In this document: one piece after another, positions 2,035 to 64,000 of the stretch
Position numbering within the stretch: the stretch's first letter is position 1
Layout of the letters: each line of letters begins with the position of its first letter
Assembly: GCF_004570385.1 (NCBI RefSeq)
Contig: NZ_SPQL01000016.1
Location: 39,016 to 103,015 of the forward strand
Direction of reading: 5' to 3'
DNA: 64,000 nucleotides
Source: Blastococcus sp. CT_GayMR19
GTDB lineage: Bacteria; Actinomycetota; Actinomycetes; Mycobacteriales; Geodermatophilaceae
Position numbers and translations under genes: made by a program
Notes under the pieces: model-generated
The model's input: only the letters and a program-made list of their open reading frames with translations
Database searches by the model: none
What the model was told of the DNA's origin: nothing

Positions 2035-3651
2035 TCAGTAGGTGAACCTCCCGACGGTGGTGCGCAGGTCGGACGCCATCCGGGACAGCTCGTCCACGGC
2101 GGTGCGGGTCTGCCCGAGCGCCTGCGTGGTGGAGTCCGCGGCCGCGGAGACCCCGGTGATGTTCGTGGCGATCTCGGTGGTGCCCGAGGCCGCCTCCTGG
2201 ACCGAGCGGGACATCTCGTTCGTCGTGGCGGTCTGCTCCTCCACCGCGGAGGCGATGGTGGTCTGCCGGTCGGAGATCTGCGCGACGATCGTGGAGATCT
2301 CCTCGATCGCGTTCACCGCGGCGGTGGTGTCGCCCTGGATGGCCAGGACCCGGCGGGCGATGTCCTCGGTCGCCTTCGCCGTCTCCTGCGCCAGCTCCTT
2401 CACCTCGTTGGCGACGACGGCGAAGCCCTTGCCGGCCTCGCCGGCCCGGGCGGCCTCGATGGTGGCGTTCAGCGCGAGCAGGTTGGTCTGCTCGGCGATG
2501 CTCGTGATCACCTTGACGACGTTGCCGATCTCGGCCGAGGACGCCCCCAGCTTGGCGACCGTGGCCGTCGTGGTCTCCGCGGCGACGACGGCCTTGGCCG
2601 CCACCTCGCTGGCCTCCGCGGCGTTCGACGCGATCTCGCGGATGGACGCGCCCATCTGCTCCGCACCGGCGGCGACGGTCTGCACGTTGCGGCTGACCTC
2701 CTCCGCGGCGGAGGCGACGACACCGGACTGCGCCGAGGTCTCACCGGCCGACGCCGAGATCTGCTGGGACGAGGCCGACAGCTCCTCGGACGACGCGGCG
2801 ACCGCGTCGGCCGAGCCGACGACCGACGAGAGGACGTCGCGCAGGTTCTGCTGCGCCGACTCGAGGGCGGCTGCCATCTGACCGAGCTCGTCCTTCGACG
2901 TGACGCCGCTGCTGACGGTGAGGTCGCCGGCCGCCATGGCCTCCGCGGAGCGCTGCACCGAGCGCACCGTGCGAGTGATGCGCCGGACGACGACGACGGT
3001 CAGGGCGACGGCCACGGCGACCGCACCCGTGGAGGTGGCCAGGAGCAGCGTGACGGCCGAATCGGCCTCGTCGGAAGCGGCTGCGTTGCGCGCGGCGGCC
3101 TGCGCGGACTGCGCGACACCCTCGGCCTCCATGTCGTCGGCGATGATCTGCAGCAGCGGCTGGAGCTGCTCCGACTGGATCTGGGCGAAGGCCTCGAAGT
3201 CGCCGCGGTCGGCCGCCGGGAACAGCTCGGTGGCCACCAGCTCGAGGTACTGCTCCCGGGTCTCCATCATCCGGGTCATCTCCTCCGGCGCCACGATGAA
3301 CGGCTCGTAGGCGTCGTAGCCGGCCTGGAGGTCGGCGGCCTTCTCCTCCATCTGCCCGACCAGCTCGAGGCGGCGCTCGGGGGAGGACACCGCGTACTCG
3401 AGGGTGCGGACGCGGTACGCGGCGTGCGCCCGCTGCACCTCGGCCAGAGCGTTCAACGGCAGGAGGTTCTCGTCGTAGATGGCCTCCTGGCCGGCGCGCA
3501 TCTCCTGGATGCGGTCGACGGCCAGCCAGTTCGTGCCGAGGACGACGACGGCGAGCAGCGCGACGACGGCGCCGATCCGGACGCCGACCGGCTTGTCTGC
3601 GAACCAGCCACCGGGGCCCCTCTTCGGAACGGAGCGAGCAGGGACGGACAT
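2035..3651 (-). CDS. Methyl-accepting chemotaxis protein 2 of a tandem set
   Basis: Chemoreceptor of 538 aa. The ATG at 3651 is preceded by AGGAG with 7-nt spacing. A short basic N-terminus is followed by TM1 (about 22-42), a helical sensor of about 150 residues, TM2 (about 190-212), HAMP, and a signalling domain whose last 260 residues differ from receptors 1 and 3 by only scattered substitutions. It ends RFTY like its neighbours. The sensor is acidic and helix-rich, resembling 4HB_MCP domains; the ligand is unknown. It has its own upstream region and terminator, so it is probably transcribed separately. The near identity of the signalling halves suggests recent duplication or gene conversion. 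Confidence 0.93.
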
Positions 3652-10762: not shown

Positions 10763-11857
10763 ATGGGACCGCTGGAGGGCGTGCGCGTCGTCGAATTCGC
10801 CGGGCTGGGACCGGGACCGTTCTGCGGCATGCTGCTCGCCGACCTCGGCGCCGACGTCGTCCGCATCGACCGGCGGGGAGACCGTGGCGGGCTCATGGGC
10901 ACACTGGGCGCGACGTCGCTGCTGGACCGGGGCAAGCGCTCGATCGCCCTCGATCTCAAGGACCCGGCCGACCTCGACGTCGTCCGGGCGCTGGTCGCGC
11001 GGGCCGACGTCCTCCTCGAGGGCTTCCGGCCCGGGGTGATGGAACGGCTGGGCCTGGGGCCCGACGAGGCGCTGGCAGGCAACCCGGCGCTCGTCTACGG
11101 GCGGATGACCGGCTGGGGGCAGACCGGTCCGCTGTCGGCCAGCGCCGGCCACGACATCGGCTACATCGCCCTCACCGGTGCGCTCGGCGCCACCGGCCGC
11201 CCGGACGAGCGGCCCGCGCCACCGATGAACCTGCTGGGCGACTTCGGCGGTGGGGGAGTGTTCCTCGCGCTGGGTGCCCTGGCCGCGCTGATCTCGGCCC
11301 GCGGCACCGGTCGGGGCCAGGTGGTGGACGCCGCGATCGTCGACGGCACCGCCGTCCTGACGACGATGATCCACGGCATGCTGGACGGCGGTTCCTGGGT
11401 GGACCACCGCGGGGTGAACCTGCTGGACACCGGGGCGCCGTTCTACGACGTCTACCGCTGCGCCGACGGGCGGTTCGTCGCCGTCGGCGCGCTCGAGGAG
11501 CAGTTCTACGCGGCGCTGGTCCGCGGTCTGGGCCTGGACGGCGAGGCGTTGCCGCCCCGGGAGGACCCGCGGCAGTGGCCGGCGCTGCGGGACCGATTCA
11601 CGCAAGCGTTCGCCTCGCGGACCCGTGCCGAGTGGTGGGCGGTCTTCGCGGGAACCGACGCCTGCGTCGCGCCGGTGCTGTCCCTGGTGGAGGCGACCGC
11701 CGACCCGCACAACGTCGATCGCGGGGTGTTCGTGGAGGTGGACGGCGTCGTGCAGCCCGCCGTCGCCCCCCGGTTCTCGGCCACGCCGGGCTCGGTGGGC
11801 CGGGTGCCCGCGGTGGGGGAGCACGACCAGGAGATCCGCGCCGAGCTCGGCCTCTGA
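10763..11857 (+). CDS. CoA-transferase family III / alpha-methylacyl-CoA racemase-like
   Basis: 364-aa CaiB/BaiF-fold protein. It opens with the racemase-type segment LEGVRVVEFAGLGPGPFCGMLLADLGADV and continues with LDLKDPADL and the G-rich DFGGGG loop typical of AMACR/Mcr proteins. The likely reaction is epimerisation of 2-methylacyl-CoA for beta-oxidation of branched or sterol side chains; a CoA transfer role cannot be excluded. The start at 10763 has GGGGAGGAG upstream. It is a single-gene unit, converging on the NAGGN operon with duplicated hairpins between. Confidence 0.88.
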   Translation: MGPLEGVRVVEFAGLGPGPFCGMLLADLGADVVRIDRRGDRGGLMGTLGATSLLDRGKRSIALDLKDPADLDVVRALVARADVLLEGFRPGVMERLGLGPDEALAGNPALVYGRMTGWGQTGPLSASAGHDIGYIALTGALGATGRPDERPAPPMNLLGDFGGGGVFLALGALAALISARGTGRGQVVDAAIVDGTAVLTTMIHGMLDGGSWVDHRGVNLLDTGAPFYDVYRCADGRFVAVGALEEQFYAALVRGLGLDGEALPPREDPRQWPALRDRFTQAFASRTRAEWWAVFAGTDACVAPVLSLVEATADPHNVDRGVFVEVDGVVQPAVAPRFSATPGSVGRVPAVGEHDQEIRAELGL

Positions 11858-11912
11858 CCCGCTTTCGGTACCGAAAGCGGGGCTGCGCCCGGCGGCTTTC
11901 GGTACCGAAAGC
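11858..11912. terminator. Twin identical palindromes between convergent genes
   Basis: Two copies of the perfect palindrome GCTTTCGGTACCGAAAGC (copy 1 at 11861-11878 inside a longer CCC...GGG stem 11858-11881, copy 2 at 11895-11912). They are separated by a 16-nt spacer between the convergent CoA-transferase and ngg genes. Each could act as a bidirectional terminator. Confidence 0.7.
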
Positions 11913-11917
11913 GGGAA

Positions 11918-13681
11918 CTAGCGGCGGCGGGTCTCGGGGAAGAGCAGGTCGACGAACCGCTCGGCGACCGGCTGCGGCTCGTGGTTGGCCAGGCCCGGCC
12001 GCTCGTTGGCCTCGATGAAGACGTAGTCGGGGCCGCCGACGTCCGGCACCAGGAAGTCCAGCCCCGTGACGGGGATGCCGAGCTCGGTCGCGGCGCGGAC
12101 CGACGCCTGGGCGATCTCCGGGTGCAACCGCTCGGTGACGTCCTCGATGGTGCCGCCGGTGTGCAGGTTCGCCGTCCGCCGGACCTGGATCCGCTCGCCG
12201 TTCGGCGGGACGTCGTCCATGGTCCAGCCCGCCTCGGCGACCACTTCGGCCGTGATGTCGTCCAGCGGGATGCGGGACTCACCGTCGGTGGCCCGCTCCC
12301 GGCGCCGGCTGGTCGCGCGGACCAGCTGCGCCACCGGGCTGCGCCCGTCCCCGACCACCTCGGCGGGACGGCGGACGGCGGCGGCGACCACCTGCCGGTC
12401 GATCACGATGACCCGCAGGTCGTCCCCCTCCACGAGCTCCTCGACGAGCACGTCCGGGCAGAACTGCAGGGCATGGTCGACGGCGCGGGCGAGGCCGGCG
12501 TCGTCCGTCACGCCGACGGTGATGCCGCGCCCCTGTTCACCGCGGGCCGGCTTGACCACGACCGCGCCGACCTCCCGCATCAGCGCGGCCGCGGCGGCCA
12601 GGTCGCCCTCGGCGGCGACCGCCCCGCGGGCCACCCGCACCCCGGCGCGCTCCATGATCCGGCGGGTCACCCGCTTGTCGTCGCACCGGCTCAGCGCCAC
12701 GGCGGAGGTGAACTCCGACAGCGACTCGAGCGTGAGCACGGACCGGCCGCCGACCGACAGCCGCATCTCGCCCCACTCGGGATCGGTCACCTCGACCCGG
12801 ATCCCGCGCCGGAGCGCCTCGTCGGCGATGATCCGCGCGTACGGGTTCAGCTGCTCGAGCCCCGGCGGGCGGGCGGCGAACAGCGGGGTGTTGATCGGGT
12901 TCTTCCGCTTGACGCAGACGGCGGCGACCCGCGTGAAGCCGAGCTTGCGGTACAGCAGGATCGCGCCGGCGTTGTCGTGCATGACCGAGAGATCCAGGTA
13001 CGCCCGGCCGCGGCCGACGTAGCGCTCGGCGAGGACGCGGACCAGGGCCTCCCCGGTGCCGGGCGGGGCGTCCTGGGCGTGGACGGCGAGGCACCACAGG
13101 CTGGTGCCGCCCTCCGGGTCGCCGAAGGCGAGCTGGTGGTCGACGCCGGTGACGGTGCCGACGATCGTCCCGGTCCGCCGGTCCTCCGCGACCAGGTAGG
13201 TGAAGGGCCGGGTCCGATGGTTGGCCCACATGACGCCGGCATCGCCGGTCACCATGCCGTTGACGGCGTAGATCGCGTTGATCCGGTCCATGTCCGCCTG
13301 GGACGTCACCGTCCGCACGAACACGCCACGGATGAGTTCGGAGCGTGGCCGGTAGCGGTGCAGGTCGAGGCGGTAGGTGTAGGAGGGGTCGATGAACAGC
13401 TCGTCCGGTGCGAGCCCCACCAGCACGTGGGGGTCGCGCGGGTAGATGCAGATGTCCCGCTCGCCGGTCTCCTCCGCGCGCAGCGCGTCGACCAGGTCCC
13501 GCAGGTCGGGGAACGTCTGGCCGAAGATCAGCCGCCCCCAGCCCAGGTCCAGGACGACGTCGGTCTGCATCCCCTGGAGCTGATGCTCGGAGGGCTGCTT
13601 CCAGGAGCGGCTGGTGATCGCCGGCGCGGAGGCCACCGGCGTGCGCCGGCGATGGCCGGCGACCCGTGGGGTTCCGGACAC
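11918..13681 (-). CDS. N-acetylglutaminylglutamine synthetase (GNAT + ATP-grasp)
   Basis: 587-aa fusion of an N-terminal GNAT acetyltransferase (about residues 100-300, GTVTGVDHQLAFGD...LWCLAV, GEALVRVLAERYVGRG) and a C-terminal ATP-grasp ligase (about 330-585, VVVKPARGEQGRGITVGV, FIEANERPGLANH). The family N-terminal signature SWKQPSEHQLQGMQTDV is present. In Sinorhizobium meliloti this enzyme makes N-acetylglutaminylglutamine, the precursor of the osmolyte NAGGN. The GTG at 13681 was chosen: it begins 5 nt after the asnO stop, and GAGG lies 9 nt upstream. A GTG at 13636 is an alternative. It is coupled to the amidotransferase upstream. Confidence 0.9.
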   Translation of the reverse strand: MSGTPRVAGHRRRTPVASAPAITSRSWKQPSEHQLQGMQTDVVLDLGWGRLIFGQTFPDLRDLVDALRAEETGERDICIYPRDPHVLVGLAPDELFIDPSYTYRLDLHRYRPRSELIRGVFVRTVTSQADMDRINAIYAVNGMVTGDAGVMWANHRTRPFTYLVAEDRRTGTIVGTVTGVDHQLAFGDPEGGTSLWCLAVHAQDAPPGTGEALVRVLAERYVGRGRAYLDLSVMHDNAGAILLYRKLGFTRVAAVCVKRKNPINTPLFAARPPGLEQLNPYARIIADEALRRGIRVEVTDPEWGEMRLSVGGRSVLTLESLSEFTSAVALSRCDDKRVTRRIMERAGVRVARGAVAAEGDLAAAAALMREVGAVVVKPARGEQGRGITVGVTDDAGLARAVDHALQFCPDVLVEELVEGDDLRVIVIDRQVVAAAVRRPAEVVGDGRSPVAQLVRATSRRRERATDGESRIPLDDITAEVVAEAGWTMDDVPPNGERIQVRRTANLHTGGTIEDVTERLHPEIAQASVRAATELGIPVTGLDFLVPDVGGPDYVFIEANERPGLANHEPQPVAERFVDLLFPETRRR

Positions 13682-56370: not shown

Positions 56371-56976
56371 ATGCTCGAGTTCGCCATCCTCGGCCTGCTG
56401 CACCAGTCGCCGATGCACGGGTACGAGCTGCGGAAGCAGCTCGCGCAGATCCTCGGCGGGCTGCGGAGCATCTCCTACGGCTCGCTCTACCCCGCGCTCA
56501 AGCGCATGCACGCGGCCGGTCTCATCAGCACCGAGGAGCCCGATCCGCACGCGCTGCTGCCCGCCGACGCCCCGCCCCTGACCGGCCGGCGCGGCAAGGT
56601 CGTCTACACGATCACCGCGGAGGGCAAGGAGCGGTTCCACGAGCTGGTCTGCGACAGCGGCCCGGAGGCCTACGACGACGGCGGCCTCTTCGGCGTCCGC
56701 CTGGCGTTCTTCCGCCACACGGCGTCGGACGTGCGGCTGCGGATCCTCGAGGGGCGCCGCCGCACCGTCGAGCGGCAGCGCGAGGGCCTGCGGTCCTCGC
56801 TGGCCCGCACCCGGGAGCGGCTCGACCACTACACGCTCGAGCTCCAGCGCCACGGGCTGGAGTCGGTGGACCGGGAGGTCCGCTGGCTCTCCGAGCTGAT
56901 CGACACCGAGCGCCGTGGAGCAGCGGGCGGCGCTCCCCCCGAGACCCCCGGCGGATCCCCGCCGAGCACCAAGTGA
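56371..56976 (+). CDS. PadR-family transcriptional regulator (Rv0047c-like)
   Basis: 201-aa regulator: winged helix at about residues 1-95 ([33 protein letters not shown]) and a C-terminal dimer helix domain with a charged coiled coil (about 120-190). ATG at 56371 follows GGGAGG. It lies directly upstream of ino1 in the same direction, the conserved PadR-Ino1 arrangement, so inositol synthesis is probably its target. A 25-nt palindrome just upstream is its expected site. Confidence 0.93.
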
Positions 56977-57068: not shown

Positions 57069-58148
57069 ATGGGAACCGTCAAGGTCGCCATCGTCGGCGT
57101 GGGCAACTGCGCCGCCTCGCTGGTGCAGGGCGTGCACTACTACCGCGATGCCGACGAGTCCGTGTCGGTGCCCGGGCTGATGCACGTGCGCTTCGGTGAC
57201 TACCACGTCTCCGACATCGAGTTCGTCGCCGCCTTCGACGTCGACGCCAAGAAGGTCGGGCGTGACCTCTCCGAGGCGATCGTCGCCAGCGAGAACAACA
57301 CCATCAAGATCTGCGACGTGCCGCCTCTCGGGGTGACCGTGCAGCGGGGGACGACCCTCGACGGTCTCGGCAAGTACTACCGCGAGACGATCGACGAGTC
57401 CGACGAGCAGCCCGTCGACATGGTCACGGCCCTGCGCGAGTCCGGCGCCGACGTCCTGGTCTGCTACCTGCCGGTCGGCTCGCAGCACGCGGCGGAGTTC
57501 TACGCCCAGGCCGCGATCGACGCGAAGGTCGCCTTCGTCAACGCCCTGCCCGTCTTCATCGCCGGCACCCCCGCCTGGGCGGAGAAGTTCACCGCCGCCG
57601 GCGTGCCGATCGTCGGCGACGACATCAAGAGCCAGGTCGGCGCCACCATCACCCACCGCGTCCTCGCCAAGCTCTTCGAGGACCGCGGCGTCCAGCTCGA
57701 CCGCACCATGCAGCTCAACGTCGGCGGCAACATGGACTTCAAGAACATGCTCGAGCGCGAGCGCCTGGAGTCCAAGAAGATCTCCAAGACCCAGTCCGTC
57801 ACCTCCCAGGTCGACCGCGACATGGGCGCCGGCAACGTGCACATCGGCCCCTCGGACCACGTGCCGTGGCTCTCGGACCGCAAGTGGGCCTACGTCCGCC
57901 TCGAGGGCCGCGCGTTCGGCGACGTGCCGCTGAGCCTGGAGTACAAGCTCGAGGTCTGGGACTCCCCCAACTCGGCCGGCATCATCATCGACGCCGTCCG
58001 CGCCGCCAAGATCGCCCTCGACCGGGGCATCGGCGGCCCCATCCTGTCCGCGTCGTCCTACTTCATGAAGAGCCCGCCCGTGCAGTACGACGACAGCCAG
58101 GCCCGCGACGCCGTCGAGGCCTTCATCCGGGGCGACATCGAACGCTGA
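57069..58148 (+). CDS. ino1: myo-Inositol-3-phosphate synthase
   Basis: 359-aa actinobacterial-type enzyme converting glucose 6-phosphate to inositol 3-phosphate with NAD. N-terminal dinucleotide loop [13 protein letters not shown], catalytic-domain [26 protein letters not shown], and [17 protein letters not shown] at 57069 follows GGAGAAGGAGAAG. Its product feeds mycothiol, phosphatidylinositol and lipoglycans; here it lies close to an ITPK-like ATP-grasp gene. A terminator follows. Confidence 0.97.
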
Positions 58149-58223: not shown

Positions 58224-58988
58224 TCAGGCGGCGACCATCTCCCGGATCATCGTCGCCCGGTCCAGCTCGCTCCACGCGGTCAGGATGTCGTCGGTGATGA
58301 CGGCGTCCACGCCGAGCTCGGCCACCCACTGCAGGTCCGACCGGTCGTTGACCGTCCAGAGCGCGACCGACAGGCCGAGCCGGTGTGCCGTCTCGACGGC
58401 CTCCGGCGTCTGCCGCACACCGGCCAGCGAGAGGTGCACCTCGTCGTGCCCGTCCTCGGAGGCCCGCTGCACGACCTCGGCGGCCGGGTCCTCGGTGTGG
58501 CCGAGCAGCGCGGTGCGGACCGGCAGGTCGGCGCACGTCGCGCGGATCATGGCGAGCAGTGCGGGGTCGAAGGACGAGACGGTGATGGCGGCGTTCCCGG
58601 CGGAGGTGCGGAGGACGTCGGCCAGGACCGACGCGGTCCGCGCGGCGACGGCGGCGTCGGCCACCGGCTTGGCCTCGACGACGACCTGAGCCCCGGAGAA
58701 GGACTGCACGGCGGCGAGCAGCTCCGGCAGCGTCGCGAGGGCGGCCTGCTCGGCGGCGCTGGGCAGGTCGTGCGTGCAGACCAGCGTGCCGCCCTCGGTG
58801 AGCCAGACGTCGACCTCGACGCCGTCGGCACCCTGGAGCAGGGCCTCGGTGACCGCCGCCACGGAGTTGTCCGGCCGGCCCGCTCCCGGGGCCCCGCGGT
58901 GTCCGAGGACCTGGACCCGGTCGGTCTCCGCCGGCAGGAAGGGGTCCGCCGGGAAGGAAACCATCTGGCGGCCGGTGCTCTCGTTCAT
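58224..58988 (-). CDS. Glycerophosphodiester phosphodiesterase
   Basis: 254-aa TIM-barrel GDPD. HRG at residues 30-32 in LGHRGAPG, metal-binding GADGVEVDVWLT, and catalytic His in CTHDLPS. It hydrolyses glycerophosphodiesters such as glycerophosphoinositol to glycerol 3-phosphate and alcohol. The ATG at 58988 has GAGG 6 nt upstream. No signal peptide, so cytosolic. Convergent to ino1, divergent from the ATP-grasp operon. Confidence 0.9.
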   Translation of the reverse strand: MNESTGRQMVSFPADPFLPAETDRVQVLGHRGAPGAGRPDNSVAAVTEALLQGADGVEVDVWLTEGGTLVCTHDLPSAAEQAALATLPELLAAVQSFSGAQVVVEAKPVADAAVAARTASVLADVLRTSAGNAAITVSSFDPALLAMIRATCADLPVRTALLGHTEDPAAEVVQRASEDGHDEVHLSLAGVRQTPEAVETAHRLGLSVALWTVNDRSDLQWVAELGVDAVITDDILTAWSELDRATMIREMVAA

Positions 58989-59447: not shown

Positions 59448-60437
59448 ATGACGAGCTCGAGCAGCTCCAGCGAGACCCGCTCCAGCGGGACCCAGCAGAT
59501 CGACGTCTCGGCGATCCGCGAGTTCGGCGAGGTCCTGCTGACGTCCCCGGCGCGGCTGTGCTTCATCGTCGAGGAGCGGTACGAGAACGAGGTCATGCCC
59601 GGTGCGGTCGTGGACGTGCTGCGCTCCTGCGGACACAGCGTCGACGTCCTGCGGCCGAACGGCACCGTGACCGACCTGTGGGAGCTGCTGCCCACCGATG
59701 TCGCGCGGTACGACGCCTTCGTGCTCAAGACCGTCTCCGAGGGCCCCGGCCTGAGCCTGCTGGACGCCGCCGCGGCCGCCGGCGTCACCACGGTCAACGA
59801 CTACCGGGCGATCCGCCTGGCCCGGGACAAGGCCGTCGCCGCCGTCCGGGCCCGGGCCGCCGGCATCCCCTTCCCGAAGACCTGGTTCGCGTCCAAGTCG
59901 ACCCTGCTCGAGCAGATCCCGGCGGACGCCTATCCGCTGGTGGTGAAACCGAACAGCGGCAGCGCGATGCGGGACGTGTACCGGGTGGACACCCCCGACG
60001 AGCTGGCGCGGCTCGCCATCGGCGGCAGCCTGCTGGTCCAGCCCTACCTGCCCAACCCGGGCCACGACGTCAAGCTCTACAACACCGGCGACGAGGTGTT
60101 CGCCACCGTGAAGCGCTCGCCGCTGCACCCGGGCGCCGACGTCGTCGAGGAGCAGATCCCCGTCACCCCCGAGCTGCGGAACCTGGCCCGCGCCGTCGGC
60201 CGGGTGTTCGGGCTCGACATCTACGGGATCGACGTCGTCGAGACCGCCGAGGGCTGGGTCGTCCTGGACGTCAACGACTTCCCCAGCTTCGGCAAGGTCC
60301 CGCAGGCCGCCTGGCGGCTGGCCCGGACCGTGTTGCGGGTGACCCGGCGCCAGGCCGCCGCCAAGGCCGCCGCCCAGGCCTCGTCCCCCACCGTCTACCG
60401 CCCCGTCGTCACGACCGTCGCGGAGGCCCGGCCATGA
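59448..60437 (+). CDS. ATP-grasp enzyme 1, unknown substrate
   Basis: 329-aa ATP-grasp protein. A Ser-rich start precedes a Rossmann-like pre-ATP-grasp domain (about 30-120). ATP binding shows in YPLVVKPNSGSAM (Lys167) and LLVQPYLPNPGHDVKLY, and the metal loop is DVNDFPSF (274-281). The fold pattern is RimK/ITPK-like, giving either amide ligation or inositol-phosphate phosphorylation. AGGAGG lies 13 nt before the ATG. The stop overlaps the next ATP-grasp gene (ATGA). First of three tightly coupled genes. Confidence 0.85.
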   Translation: MTSSSSSSETRSSGTQQIDVSAIREFGEVLLTSPARLCFIVEERYENEVMPGAVVDVLRSCGHSVDVLRPNGTVTDLWELLPTDVARYDAFVLKTVSEGPGLSLLDAAAAAGVTTVNDYRAIRLARDKAVAAVRARAAGIPFPKTWFASKSTLLEQIPADAYPLVVKPNSGSAMRDVYRVDTPDELARLAIGGSLLVQPYLPNPGHDVKLYNTGDEVFATVKRSPLHPGADVVEEQIPVTPELRNLARAVGRVFGLDIYGIDVVETAEGWVVLDVNDFPSFGKVPQAAWRLARTVLRVTRRQAAAKAAAQASSPTVYRPVVTTVAEARP

Positions 60438-61258
60438 AGATCCACCTGCTCGCCGAGGCCGCGCCCAACCCGGTCCTCACCGCCGTCATGGCGGAGCTGG
60501 GCCGCCGGCACGAGGTCGCGGTCTACGACGCCGAGACCCTGCCGGCGGGATACGGCGGCGAGCCCGGTCAGCAGGCGCCGCCGGACGTCGTCCTGCTCAA
60601 GTCCCGCCGGCCCGAGGCGAGGCGGGTGGCACAGACCGCGGAGCGGGCCGGCAGCGTGGTCGTGAACAGTCCGGCCGCGACCACCCTGGCGCTGGACCGC
60701 GCCGCCACGGCCGAGGCCCTGGACCGGGCCGGCGTCGCGGCCCCCCGCAGTTGGTCCGTCGCCGCCCTGCGCGACCTGGCCGCGGACGGAGCCGCGCTGC
60801 CGTGGCCCCTCGTCGTCAAGAGCCGCACCAGCTCCCGCCGCGATCTCGTGCGCCTGGTGAGCAGCCCGGCGGAGCTTGCCGGGCTGCTGCCCGAGTGGGG
60901 CGGGGAACCGGTCGTCGCCCAGGAGTTCGCTGCCAACGACGGCTTCGACATCAAGGTGTGGGTGATCGGCGCGCACCTCTCCGTGGCCCGCCGGCGCAGC
61001 GCCCTGGAGGCCATCGACAAGAGCGCCGACGAGCACCTGGACCCGGCCGATCTGCCGGAGGACTGGATCCGGACCGCGCGCGACGCCGGCGCGGCGATGG
61101 ACCTGCAGCTGTACGGCGTCGACCTGCTGATCACCGGGGGCCGGCCGGTGGTGGTGGACGTCAACCCGTTCCCCGGTTTCCGCGGCGCACGTGAGCCTGC
61201 CGAGGCACTGCTCCGCTTCCTCTCGACGATCGCATCCACGAGGACGGTGCCGGCATGA
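60434..61258 (+). CDS. ATP-grasp enzyme 2, inositol-trisphosphate-kinase-like
   Basis: 274-aa ATP-grasp protein. By memory it aligns with eukaryotic ITPK: PVVAQEFAANDGFDIKVWV (160-178), then LSVARRRSAL, then LYGVDLLI and VVVDVNPFPGF (239-249) with Asp242/Asn244 as metal ligands. ITPK phosphorylates inositol phosphates; RimK-like ligases share the fold, so this is not proved. It overlaps both neighbours by 4 nt, indicating a stoichiometric set with ATP-grasp 1 and the APH-like protein. Confidence 0.8.
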   Translation: MKIHLLAEAAPNPVLTAVMAELGRRHEVAVYDAETLPAGYGGEPGQQAPPDVVLLKSRRPEARRVAQTAERAGSVVVNSPAATTLALDRAATAEALDRAGVAAPRSWSVAALRDLAADGAALPWPLVVKSRTSSRRDLVRLVSSPAELAGLLPEWGGEPVVAQEFAANDGFDIKVWVIGAHLSVARRRSALEAIDKSADEHLDPADLPEDWIRTARDAGAAMDLQLYGVDLLITGGRPVVVDVNPFPGFRGAREPAEALLRFLSTIASTRTVPA

Positions 61259-62619
61259 GCATCTCGACCGGACCGGCGAGGCCGATGGTGACCGGCGCGA
61301 CCGACGCGCTCGACCGGTACCTCGCCGACGAGGGCACCGACCGGACCAGGCCCCCGCTGCGGTACCTGCGGCGCAAGCCCGGACGTGGCCTCGTGGCTGT
61401 CTTCGGCCCGAGCGACCGCGGGGACATCTACACGGTCAGCGTCGACGAGCGGTCCCTGCTCGAGGGTCTCGACGCTGCCGGGGTGTCGGGCTCCACGGTC
61501 CAGGCGTTCCCCGTCGACCCGAAGCTCCCGCACCTGGACGCCGTGATGGCGCCCTCCGCGCACGCCGACCTCGCGGCCGCCCTCGAATCGACCGCCCGCG
61601 AGGTCCACGACGTGCCGTCCGACCGGGACCTCCTGGACGTCGTCGCCGAGCCCGTCCGGTACAAGCCGGGGGACCGGTGCGTCCTCCGCTACCGGCTCCG
61701 CTTCGGCGCACCGGGGGCCGCCGGGGGACCGGGCACGGCTCCCCGGATCTGCACCCTCGTCGCGAAGCTCTACCGGGATCCCCACGAGGCGCAGGCCGCC
61801 GACGACCTCCTGGCCCGCCTCCGCGAGCGAGCGGCGGTCGAGTGGACCGCCCGGCCCCTGGGCGTGGTGCCGGGGCTGCCGCTGGCGCTGACCGAGGACC
61901 TCGGGAGCAGCCGCGACCCCGTGCCCGCGCACTCCGGTCTGCACGTCGTGCATCCCGGGTCCGACGCCGCGGCCGAGGTCGTCCGCCGGGCCGCCCGGGC
62001 CCTCGCCGAGCTGCACACGAGCGGCGTCGACACCGCCGGCCTGAGCCGGCGCACCGGAGCCGACGAGGCGGGGAAGGCGGCGAAGCGCGCCGGACTGCTC
62101 GAGGGGTACGTCCCGGAGCTCGCCCCGGTGGTCCGGCAGGTCGGCGACGCGCTGTGCGCCGCCCTGACCGACCTGCCCACGGACACCCTTCGTCCCGGGC
62201 ACGGGAGCTACAAGCCGAGCCAGCTGATGGTCCGGGGCAGCGCCGTCTTCCTCGTGGACTTCGACCAGTTCTGCCTGGCCGACCCGGCGCTCGACGTCGG
62301 GTACTTCCTCGCCTACCTGCGGCCGGCCGGGCTCTTCTACCGCCGGGCCGGTCGCCGGGCGTGGTTCGAGGAGTCCGCGGAGACCTTCCTCTCCACCTAC
62401 CTCCACCGCCTCACCGAGCGCGGGGAATCCGCGGCCACCTGCGCGGGCATCGCGCGCCGTGCCCCCCTGTTCGAGGCCGCGCTGCTCCTCAAGATCGCGG
62501 CGCGACGGGCCAACCGGCTGCACAGCCCACGTCCCGGAGAGGTGGCGGCGGTGCTCGACGAGGTCTCCCGCTGCCTCGCCGTCACCCGGACGCCCCGGTC
62601 GCTGGTCGGAGAGGCCTAA
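61255..62619 (+). CDS. APH-fold phosphotransferase with altered catalytic motif
   Basis: 454-aa protein with the aminoglycoside-phosphotransferase/choline-kinase fold: nucleotide-lobe segment KPGDRCVLRYRLRF and LVAKLYRD, hinge, then His316-Gly317-Ser318-Tyr-Lys-Pro-Ser-Gln323 where kinases have HGDxxxxN, followed by Asp335-Phe-Asp337. The catalytic Asp and Asn are thus Ser and Gln, so it may use another base or be a pseudokinase. An N-terminal ~110-residue domain precedes it. ATGA-coupled to ATP-grasp 2. The target is unknown. Confidence 0.8.
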   Translation: MSISTGPARPMVTGATDALDRYLADEGTDRTRPPLRYLRRKPGRGLVAVFGPSDRGDIYTVSVDERSLLEGLDAAGVSGSTVQAFPVDPKLPHLDAVMAPSAHADLAAALESTAREVHDVPSDRDLLDVVAEPVRYKPGDRCVLRYRLRFGAPGAAGGPGTAPRICTLVAKLYRDPHEAQAADDLLARLRERAAVEWTARPLGVVPGLPLALTEDLGSSRDPVPAHSGLHVVHPGSDAAAEVVRRAARALAELHTSGVDTAGLSRRTGADEAGKAAKRAGLLEGYVPELAPVVRQVGDALCAALTDLPTDTLRPGHGSYKPSQLMVRGSAVFLVDFDQFCLADPALDVGYFLAYLRPAGLFYRRAGRRAWFEESAETFLSTYLHRLTERGESAATCAGIARRAPLFEAALLLKIAARRANRLHSPRPGEVAAVLDEVSRCLAVTRTPRSLVGEA

Positions 62620-64000
62620 CCCGCCAGGTTCAGGACGGTCAGCGTGCCGTCGCGGAGGTTGGTGACGTAACCCCGGCTGCCGTCGGGCAGGACCGCGAAC
62701 GAGGTGGGGGACTCGCCGGTCGGGATGGTGGCCGTGACCGCGTACGTCTCCCCGTCGATGACCGAGATGCTGTTGTCCTCGTTGTTGGTGATGTAGGCGT
62801 ACCGGCCGTCCGCCGACCACGCGGCATGCTGCGGGAACGCGCCGACGGGGATCGTCGCGAGCACGGTGTTGGTGTCGGTGTCGATGACCGACGCCGAGTC
62901 GGCGTCGTAGGTGGCCACGATGAGGATCGGCTTGGTCGGGTGCATGGCGATGCTGTGCGGGCTCGTGGGCACCGGGATGGTCGTGATGACCGTGTTGGTG
63001 GCGGTGTCGATCGCCGACACGACGTTGGAGTCGTGGTTGGCGGTGTAGACCCGGGATCCGTCGACCGTGAAGGCGACCCAGTGCGGGTTGGGCGCCACCT
63101 CGATGTTCGTGACCAGGTCGTCGGTGGACGTGTCGATCACGGACACGCTGTCGTTGTCGTGATTGGGCACGTAGACCCACTTCCCGTCGGGGGACACCGC
63201 GGAGAGGAACGGCCGGGTGTCCACCGGGATGGTGTCGACGACCGAGTTCGACGTCGTGTCGAGGACGCTGACCGCCGCGATGGTCCGGGCCTCGTCCCAC
63301 ACGCTCACGTACGCCCTCCGGCCGTCCGGGCTGAAGGCGATGAACTGCGGGGGACCGACGTCGATCGGGATCGTCGCCGTCACGGCGTCGACAGCCGTGT
63401 CGACGACGGTGACCACGCCGACATCGCGGTTGGCGATGTAGAGCTGCCGCCCGTTCGGTGCCGCGGCGACGTATCCCGGCGTCTCACCGACCGGGATGGT
63501 GGCGCCGATGGACGGGATCGGGACCGCCGTCGACGGCGGGGCCGGGGCTTCCGATGCCGAGGGCGACGCCGAGGCGGTCGGCGCCTGGGCGCCGCCGGTC
63601 TGGCCGTCCGGCCGCGTGCTCAGGTAGACGGCCACGCCGGACACGACCACGAGCAGCGCCAGCCCCACGAGAAGCGCGAGGTACCGGCTCCACCACGGTG
63701 CGGACGCGGCCGGTGGGGGAACCGTCGCTGCGGGACCGCCCGGTCCAGGTCCCTCCGGTGGGGGAGCGGCCGGCGGGGCACTCCCGGGGGGCTCGCCGGT
63801 GCGGGGCTCGGGCACCTGGCCCGACGGCTGCGCGGCGACGGGCACCTGGCCCGACGGCTGCGCGGCGACGGTCGCCTGGCCCGAGGGCTGGGCGGCGACG
63901 GTTGCCTGGCCCGAGGGCTGGGCGGCGACGGTTGCCTGGCCCGAGGGCTGGGCGGCGACGGTCGCGGCCCCGCCGCCGTGGTCGGTGAGGGCGACAGATC
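62616..64000 (-). CDS. YVTN beta-propeller membrane protein, 5' end beyond the window
   Basis: Reading frame open to the window edge (461 codons here). A 10-residue repeat VAAQPSGQAT (five copies) and a Pro-rich stretch precede one TM helix (about 63710-63610), a linker, then a seven-bladed YVTN/YncE propeller with recurrent SVIDT and (T)IPV units. A GTG at 63845 is the last possible in-frame start, but upstream codons (SVALTDHGGG) continue without stop. Pro-rich cytosolic part, single TM and external propeller is the layout of receptor Ser/Thr kinases (PknD type), so a kinase may lie upstream. Ends convergent with the APH gene, 4-nt overlap. Confidence 0.85.
   Translation of the reverse strand, partial: SVALTDHGGGAATVAAQPSGQATVAAQPSGQATVAAQPSGQATVAAQPSGQVPVAAQPSGQVPEPRTGEPPGSAPPAAPPPEGPGPGGPAATVPPPAASAPWWSRYLALLVGLALLVVVSGVAVYLSTRPDGQTGGAQAPTASASPSASEAPAPPSTAVPIPSIGATIPVGETPGYVAAAPNGRQLYIANRDVGVVTVVDTAVDAVTATIPIDVGPPQFIAFSPDGRRAYVSVWDEARTIAAVSVLDTTSNSVVDTIPVDTRPFLSAVSPDGKWVYVPNHDNDSVSVIDTSTDDLVTNIEVAPNPHWVAFTVDGSRVYTANHDSNVVSAIDTATNTVITTIPVPTSPHSIAMHPTKPILIVATYDADSASVIDTDTNTVLATIPVGAFPQHAAWSADGRYAYITNNEDNSISVIDGETYAVTATIPTGESPTSFAVLPDGSRGYVTNLRDGTLTVLNLAG
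63811..63960. repeat. Five 30-bp tandem repeats in coding DNA
   Basis: Units at 63811, 63841, 63871, 63901 and 63931, each ending GGCGACG. Units 1 and 2 are identical, as are 4 and 5. Each encodes ten residues (VAAQPSGQ plus two). Exact duplicates imply recent slippage. Confidence 0.9.

Follow-up and report, generated by a model that had tools for sequence, protein, structure and literature searches.

A conserved pair of ATP-grasp genes with a predicted pseudokinase partner in Blastococcus, for which the adjacent ino1 is probably an insertion site

What would two ATP-grasp enzymes and a degenerate kinase-like protein make together when their genes overlap one another beside ino1, the gene for inositol-3-phosphate synthase? 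The question is raised by a 64,000-nucleotide stretch of Blastococcus sp. CT_GayMR19, a genome of the Geodermatophilaceae (contig labelled C8, 39016-103015; called the window here), which carries genes for two ATP-grasp enzymes, termed AG1 and AG2, followed by a gene for an APH-fold protein. A first-pass annotation of this DNA had proposed an inositol pathway involving ino1, with a small peptide-like metabolite as a second option. Our analysis indicates that the AG1-AG2 pair is the unit of conservation, that the APH protein is tied to AG2, and that adjacency to ino1 probably reflects the insertion (landing) site of a larger gene island and not a pathway. We give about even chances to the explanation that we favor, in which AG1 and AG2 would sequentially assemble one small molecule, with the APH protein as a binding partner of AG2 and an ABC exporter that secretes the product.

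The pair was followed outside the Geodermatophilaceae with an AG2 profile search of 394 genomes of the class, 19 of which were positive (E<=1e-8), 12 of them in a single family (f5) that we infer to be the Streptomycetaceae. Within this family AG2 is present in 97 of 249 sampled genomes (E<=1e-30) at 98 places; 90 of these 98, together with one locus from another family (f2), constitute the 91 loci compared here. In 86 of the 91 loci AG1 lies directly 5' of AG2 and on its strand, and in 73 of the 86 the two genes overlap by 4 bases. The five exceptions are L213, L236 and L293, in which one partner is uncalled, and L215 and L217, in which AG2 is fused to APH. No ino1 is found near the pair in any of the 91 loci (6-10 kb per side, less at contig ends). 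Thus, with AG1 preceding AG2 in 86 loci and ino1 in none, it is the AG1-AG2 pair that is conserved as a unit, and it is so in several actinobacterial families. Other neighbors of the pair are shared by groups of at most 23 of the 91 loci, and these groups look like inherited synteny. We found no match to the window AG2 (E<=1e-15) or to one AG2 from family f5 (E<=1e-20) in 72,556 plasmid records, and no description of the pair in open-licence PMC titles and abstracts, subscription papers being outside the scope of that search.

The regions upstream of AG1 have features of their own. Loci of family f5 (for example L218, L238 and L241) contain a conserved promoter-like block, GTGGCATCCTG, many have an inverted repeat, CCGGACG...CGTCCGG, ahead of the start codon, and 28 of 87 upstream regions contain the 12-mer CGTGGCATCCTG.

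In the window the AG1/AG2 and AG2/APH junctions are each a 4-base ATGA overlap, in agreement with the coupling of the three genes seen in the first-pass annotation, and the order AG1-AG2-APH is kept in five further Geodermatophilaceae loci (73-88% identity to the window for AG1, 71-84% for AG2 and APH). The AG1/AG2 junction is ATGA in all six loci, the window included, while the AG2/APH junction is ATGA in three of the six and GTGA in two; in the sixth, L033, ATGA is present at the AG2 stop and the called APH start lies 44 bases downstream. Gene starts are uncertain because the caller was a simple codon-usage script. A tandem duplicate of AG1 is present in Geodermatophilus sp. YIM 151500 (L036, 1250-3399), the copies being 82% and 86% identical to the window AG1.

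The association of the APH protein with AG2 is seen most directly in L214, L215, L216 and L217, loci of another family in which AG2 and APH form a single protein of 718-784 amino acids, with AG1 before it and an overlapping ABC exporter gene after it. By BLAST the APH halves of these fusions are 36-39% identical to the window APH over about 400 residues; the Pfam profile PF01636 is passed in L217 only (27.7 bits), and assignment of the other three rests on BLAST. The fusion links APH with AG2 by evidence separate from the gene order in Geodermatophilaceae. Like APH-family kinases, the window APH matches PF01636 (43.8 bits against a cut-off of 23.2), but it differs from them in that the catalytic Asp and Asn are both replaced, the catalytic HGDxxxxN reading HGSYKPSQ, which fits its earlier description as degenerate. 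Among the best 120 of 649 relatives the residues H, G, S, K, S and Q of HGSYKxSQ are each present in 120 of 120, with Ser thus in place of the catalytic Asp throughout, and in the four fusions this Asp is Ala (the other two lists of protein relatives hold the best 120 of 273 and the best 120 of 674). Because the catalytic Asp is replaced in this way in the listed relatives and in the fusions, we predict from sequence that the APH protein is a pseudokinase. Its match to the class V lanthipeptide kinase LxmK (NF038156) is weak (32.2 bits; cut-off 315).

A second cluster with several APH-like proteins was seen in four Geodermatophilaceae genomes (L116 8635-19584, L118, L119 and L120). There HGD is kept in 9 of 11 motif hits and is HGA in two, the ABC gene is 51-53% identical to that of the ino1-adjacent island, and apparent glycosyltransferase genes and an apparent epimerase (unscanned look-alikes) are also present.

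AG1 and AG2 are ancient paralogues (26% identity, E 1.1e-40 by hhalign) that each exceed the Pfam cut-offs of two families, AG1 scoring 42.8 bits for RimK and 29.0 bits for Ins134_P3_kin (PF05770, cut-off 23), and AG2 38.0 bits for Ins134_P3_kin and 27.3 bits for RimK. Profile and fold comparisons favor the RimK/LysX/ArgX ligases, and the closest solved fold is that of these ligases and not that of inositol-trisphosphate 5/6-kinase (ITPK). Resemblance to the PPIP5K/Vip1 kinases is weak in sequence (45.7 bits for the family profile versus 119.2 for LysX). Both proteins nevertheless differ from ArgX/LysX/RimK (TIGR00768, PF08443) in having D-x-N instead of E-x-N, in lacking the N-x-x-R-G-G loop, and in falling below the TIGR00768 cut-off of 143.4 (92.5 bits for AG1, 53.3 for AG2). 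A candidate AG1::AG2 fusion, P0306, was rejected because both halves are AG1-like.

AG2 also has real likenesses to ITPK. The segments QEF...KVWVIG, GVDLLI and DVNPFPGF that the first-pass annotation likened to ITPK are all present in AG2, which shares with ITPK the D-x-N-x-F-P-G loop, a K-V-x-V-x-G segment and a PF05770 score above cut-off. The metal-loop residues D230, D242, N244, F246, P247 and G248 are each found in 87 of 87 AG2, and the D-I-N-x-F-P-G of human (DINAFPG) and maize ITPK is common to AG2; AG1 has FPS where AG2 and ITPK show FPG. A further likeness is a Lys on what we take to be the substrate side. However, PF05770 is matched at E<=1e-3 by only 18 of 39 AG2 and 14 of 35 AG1, the alignments comprising the window plus 38 of 40 selected AG2 (A6; the fused L214 and L216 excluded) and the window plus 34 of 40 selected AG1 (A7); L039, whose ATP-grasp frame stops early, stands outside the alignment. 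Additionally, ITPK sequences show NHN or NHG at a position where the His following QxFxN presumably has a role in substrate binding, and position 168 of AG2, which aligns with it, carries N in 49, G in 31, S in four, A in two and T in one sequence, with His in 0 of 87.

In the explanation that we favor, AG1 and then AG2 would act on one small molecule, and proximity in fold and profile to ArgX/LysX/RimK suggests the chemistry of a ligase rather than a kinase. The APH protein, without its catalytic Asp, would likely bind AG2, and the ABC exporter would likely secrete the product. The second option of the first-pass annotation is thereby supported in the form of a small, possibly exported product. 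Several observations weigh against this explanation. D-x-N is found in 172 of 172 AG1 and AG2 sequences where LysX shows E-x-N, and the N-x-x-R-G-G loop of LysX is found in none of the 172, so that ligase chemistry is not secured; PMC4431377 gives ExN as the standard motif, and also mentions linked ATP-grasp ligases from other operons. A single-sequence PDB search with AG2 places ITPK first (29.2 bits, with a LysX-type ligase at 27.0 bits). Loss of the HGD Asp alone is no proof that an APH protein is inactive. By BLAST to the island proteins, a match to the island APH lies beside the pair in 4 of the 91 loci and a match to the island ABC transporter in 9 of the 91; therefore neither is required in general. 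Finally, at L210 AG2 shares 13 bases with an inositol-monophosphatase-family gene (11055-11957; PF00459, 114 bits), the sole such neighbor found by BLAST among the 91 loci.

The surroundings of the operon in the window (Table 1) bear on the significance of ino1. Farther upstream are genes for ribosomal S6, SSB, S18 and L9, a transglycosylase-transpeptidase and DUF5318, followed by PadR.

Table 1. Positions in the window of the three-gene operon and of the genes next to it
Feature	Coordinates	Strand	Remarks
PadR-family regulator	56371-56976	+	PF03551 64.2 bits (64.1 in empty site L121); position shared by filled and empty sites
ino1, PadR-linked copy, left flank of island	57078-58148 (start approximate)	+	TIGR03450 678.7 bits, cut-off 638
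GDPD-family gene, first of island on ino1 side	58224-58988	-	PF03009 96.8 bits on longer open reading frame to 59162
AG1, ATP-grasp enzyme, RimK/LysX/ArgX-like fold	59448-60437	+	329 aa; metal loop DVNDFPSF; internal stops 0
AG2, ATP-grasp enzyme, between RimK/LysX and ITPK	60434-61258	+	274 aa; metal loop DVNPFPGF; internal stops 0
APH-fold protein, predicted pseudokinase	61255-62619	+	454 aa; PF01636; HGSYKPSQ...VDFDQ; internal stops 0
Beta-propeller C-terminus of Ser/Thr kinase-HSP70-propeller protein, next gene of island	62616-64000	-	Open at contig end

Among 112 Geodermatophilaceae genomes ino1 is near universal (104 genomes), and a close AG2 (77-83% identity) and APH (71-81% identity) occur in the same six, the window's own genome and five others. 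Operon-free L121, L122 and L123 have the order PadR, ino1, lipoprotein-like gene, a spacer of 97-157 bases separating ino1 from the latter (the lipoprotein label comes from the N-terminal sequence, and Pfam gives no match in it). In filled genomes an island of about 17-21 kb lies between ino1 and this usual downstream neighbor. The island begins with GDPD, AG1, AG2, APH and one or two Ser/Thr kinase genes (long versions with HSP70 and propeller), continues with a trypsin-like protease in some loci and an ABC exporter (1157-1184 amino acids) whose C-terminal part is APH-like, and its far part holds a small kinase, an FHA protein, a GH15 trehalase-like enzyme, an FHA-215 protein and a PepSY protein. 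Operon-free genomes likewise have the PadR-linked ino1 copy that adjoins the operon, and the patchiness of the island against a near-universal ino1 leaves their adjacency with little functional weight. The first-pass annotation had named ino1 and a GDPD gene as the nearest upstream metabolic genes, and both are found there, GDPD on the opposite strand. GDPD was rejected as an operon member because it is divergent; no gene in the 91 loci has it as its best match above 80 bits (weaker relatives would escape this search), and it is unmatched in the three empty sites.

The far end of the island carries a second ino1 in three of four loci: L048, G028 (C19 and C13) and the window's own genome (C2). 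In G. sabuli (L113, L114) a second ino1 is absent at the far end, and a search for a remnant gave nothing above noise. In the window's own genome the end of C8, C29 (L112) and the start of C2 (L046) carry island parts in the expected order, and its two ino1 copies, 94.9% identical in amino acids and 94.2% over 1076 bp (essentially just the coding sequence), are mutual nearest relatives among the 39 full-length entries compared, which cover part of the loci and contain repeats. L035, a single metagenome contig, has the order FHA-215, PepSY, a 27-base ino1 remnant (about 3464-3490, E 2.8e-6), GDPD, AG1, hinting at the junction expected from recombination between two ino1 copies. The contig and window end falls in the kinase-HSP70-propeller gene, which is whole in L033 and L048; its linker has a run of short AAQPSGQ repeats, which probably caused the break in the assembly.

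A bacterial inositol-phosphate pathway, in which ino1 supplies inositol 3-phosphate and AG2 (perhaps AG1) phosphorylates it in the manner of ITPK by a lipid-independent route, seems to us improbable. PF05770 scores in AG1 and AG2, the loop shared with ITPK, the second ino1 at the island end and the overlapping gene at L210 argue for it, as does the precedent of a Lokiarchaeota ITPK family, which, according to PMC8024741 and PMC10897400, ended the eukaryote-only view of these kinases and led to a PLC-independent route. In our searches the genome of the Lokiarchaeota locus L042 gave no match at E<=1e-3 genome-wide, although the single protein scores 26.6 bits. ITPK in Actinomycetota at large was rejected, PF05770 being reached in 5 of 396 genomes of the phylum. 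Against such a pathway, ino1 looks like an insertion site, its co-occurrence with the operon is uninformative because it is near universal, the fold of AG1 and AG2 is closer to ligases, and AG2 has neither the ITPK His nor a uniform PF05770 match. With ino1 kept in empty sites and absent around all 91 other pairs, we rejected ino1 adjacency as the basis of the leading explanation. The first-pass annotation had said that ligase hits with no ITPK similarity, and no ino1 co-occurrence elsewhere, would speak against its pathway; the second part is what we find, and the first is so in part, with ligases favored and ITPK similarity real. It is slightly less improbable, though still unlikely, that AG1 and AG2 are an ATP-grasp branch bridging ligases and inositol-phosphate kinases, with AG2 a small-molecule kinase that has an ITPK-type active site, is steered by a dead-kinase partner to which it is sometimes fused, and makes a phosphorylated product that is exported. 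If true, this would make it the first ITPK-like kinase system from bacteria and would hint at the origin of eukaryotic inositol-phosphate kinases. A little more credible, yet doubtful, are two ATP-grasp-fold kinases for another polyol or sugar phosphate. Clusters in which three or four ATP-grasp genes from the same branch accompany a gene resembling mannitol-1-phosphate dehydrogenase and one for an MFS transporter do exist (L040 4880-10675, L041 2790-7837, L044 1293-6235; domain scan on L040 only), but they differ in branch from the pair and show no APH or ABC gene. Top folds and profiles are ligases, and among 26 wider relatives two have E-x-N and one D-x-S.

Two further possibilities keep ligase chemistry. 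AG1 and AG2 might attach amino acids to a cellular protein as RimK does, with APH helping to bind the target; RimK and LysX are nearest in fold and profile, and no neighbor that might be a dedicated substrate is common to more than 23 of the 91 loci. The exporter gene after the fusion and within the island points instead to a secreted product, and we regard such protein modification as unlikely, on a par with the bridging-branch kinase. Very improbable is a graspetide-type cluster for a ribosomally synthesized and post-translationally modified peptide, with a pair of ATP-grasp macrocyclases plus an exporter. Two ATP-grasp genes occur in some microviridin-like loci, where exporters are common (PMC8939145), and Actinomycetota graspetide groups 29 and 37 often have a phosphotransferase (PMC13097080). 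In contrast, no widely shared precursor peptide was found near AG1: within 400 nucleotides upstream in 86 loci the best short open reading frame is common to 10 other loci, and around the six Geodermatophilaceae operons the best of 39 resembles frames in three others, on mixed strands. The graspetide-type profile TIGR04187 is also weak (17.9 bits for AG1 against a cut-off of 350).

A gene pair this common, with so strict an order and with coupled translation, would be expected to make something specific. The AG2::APH fusion followed by an exporter provides a concrete handle on an ATP-grasp enzyme with a predicted pseudokinase partner, and an ITPK-like D-x-N-x-F-P in a ligase fold offers a case for testing how enzymes of the ATP-grasp type change from transferring phosphate to forming amides or back. 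The locus is also a case in which an operon adjacent to ino1 can mislead, as the link resembles a landing site.

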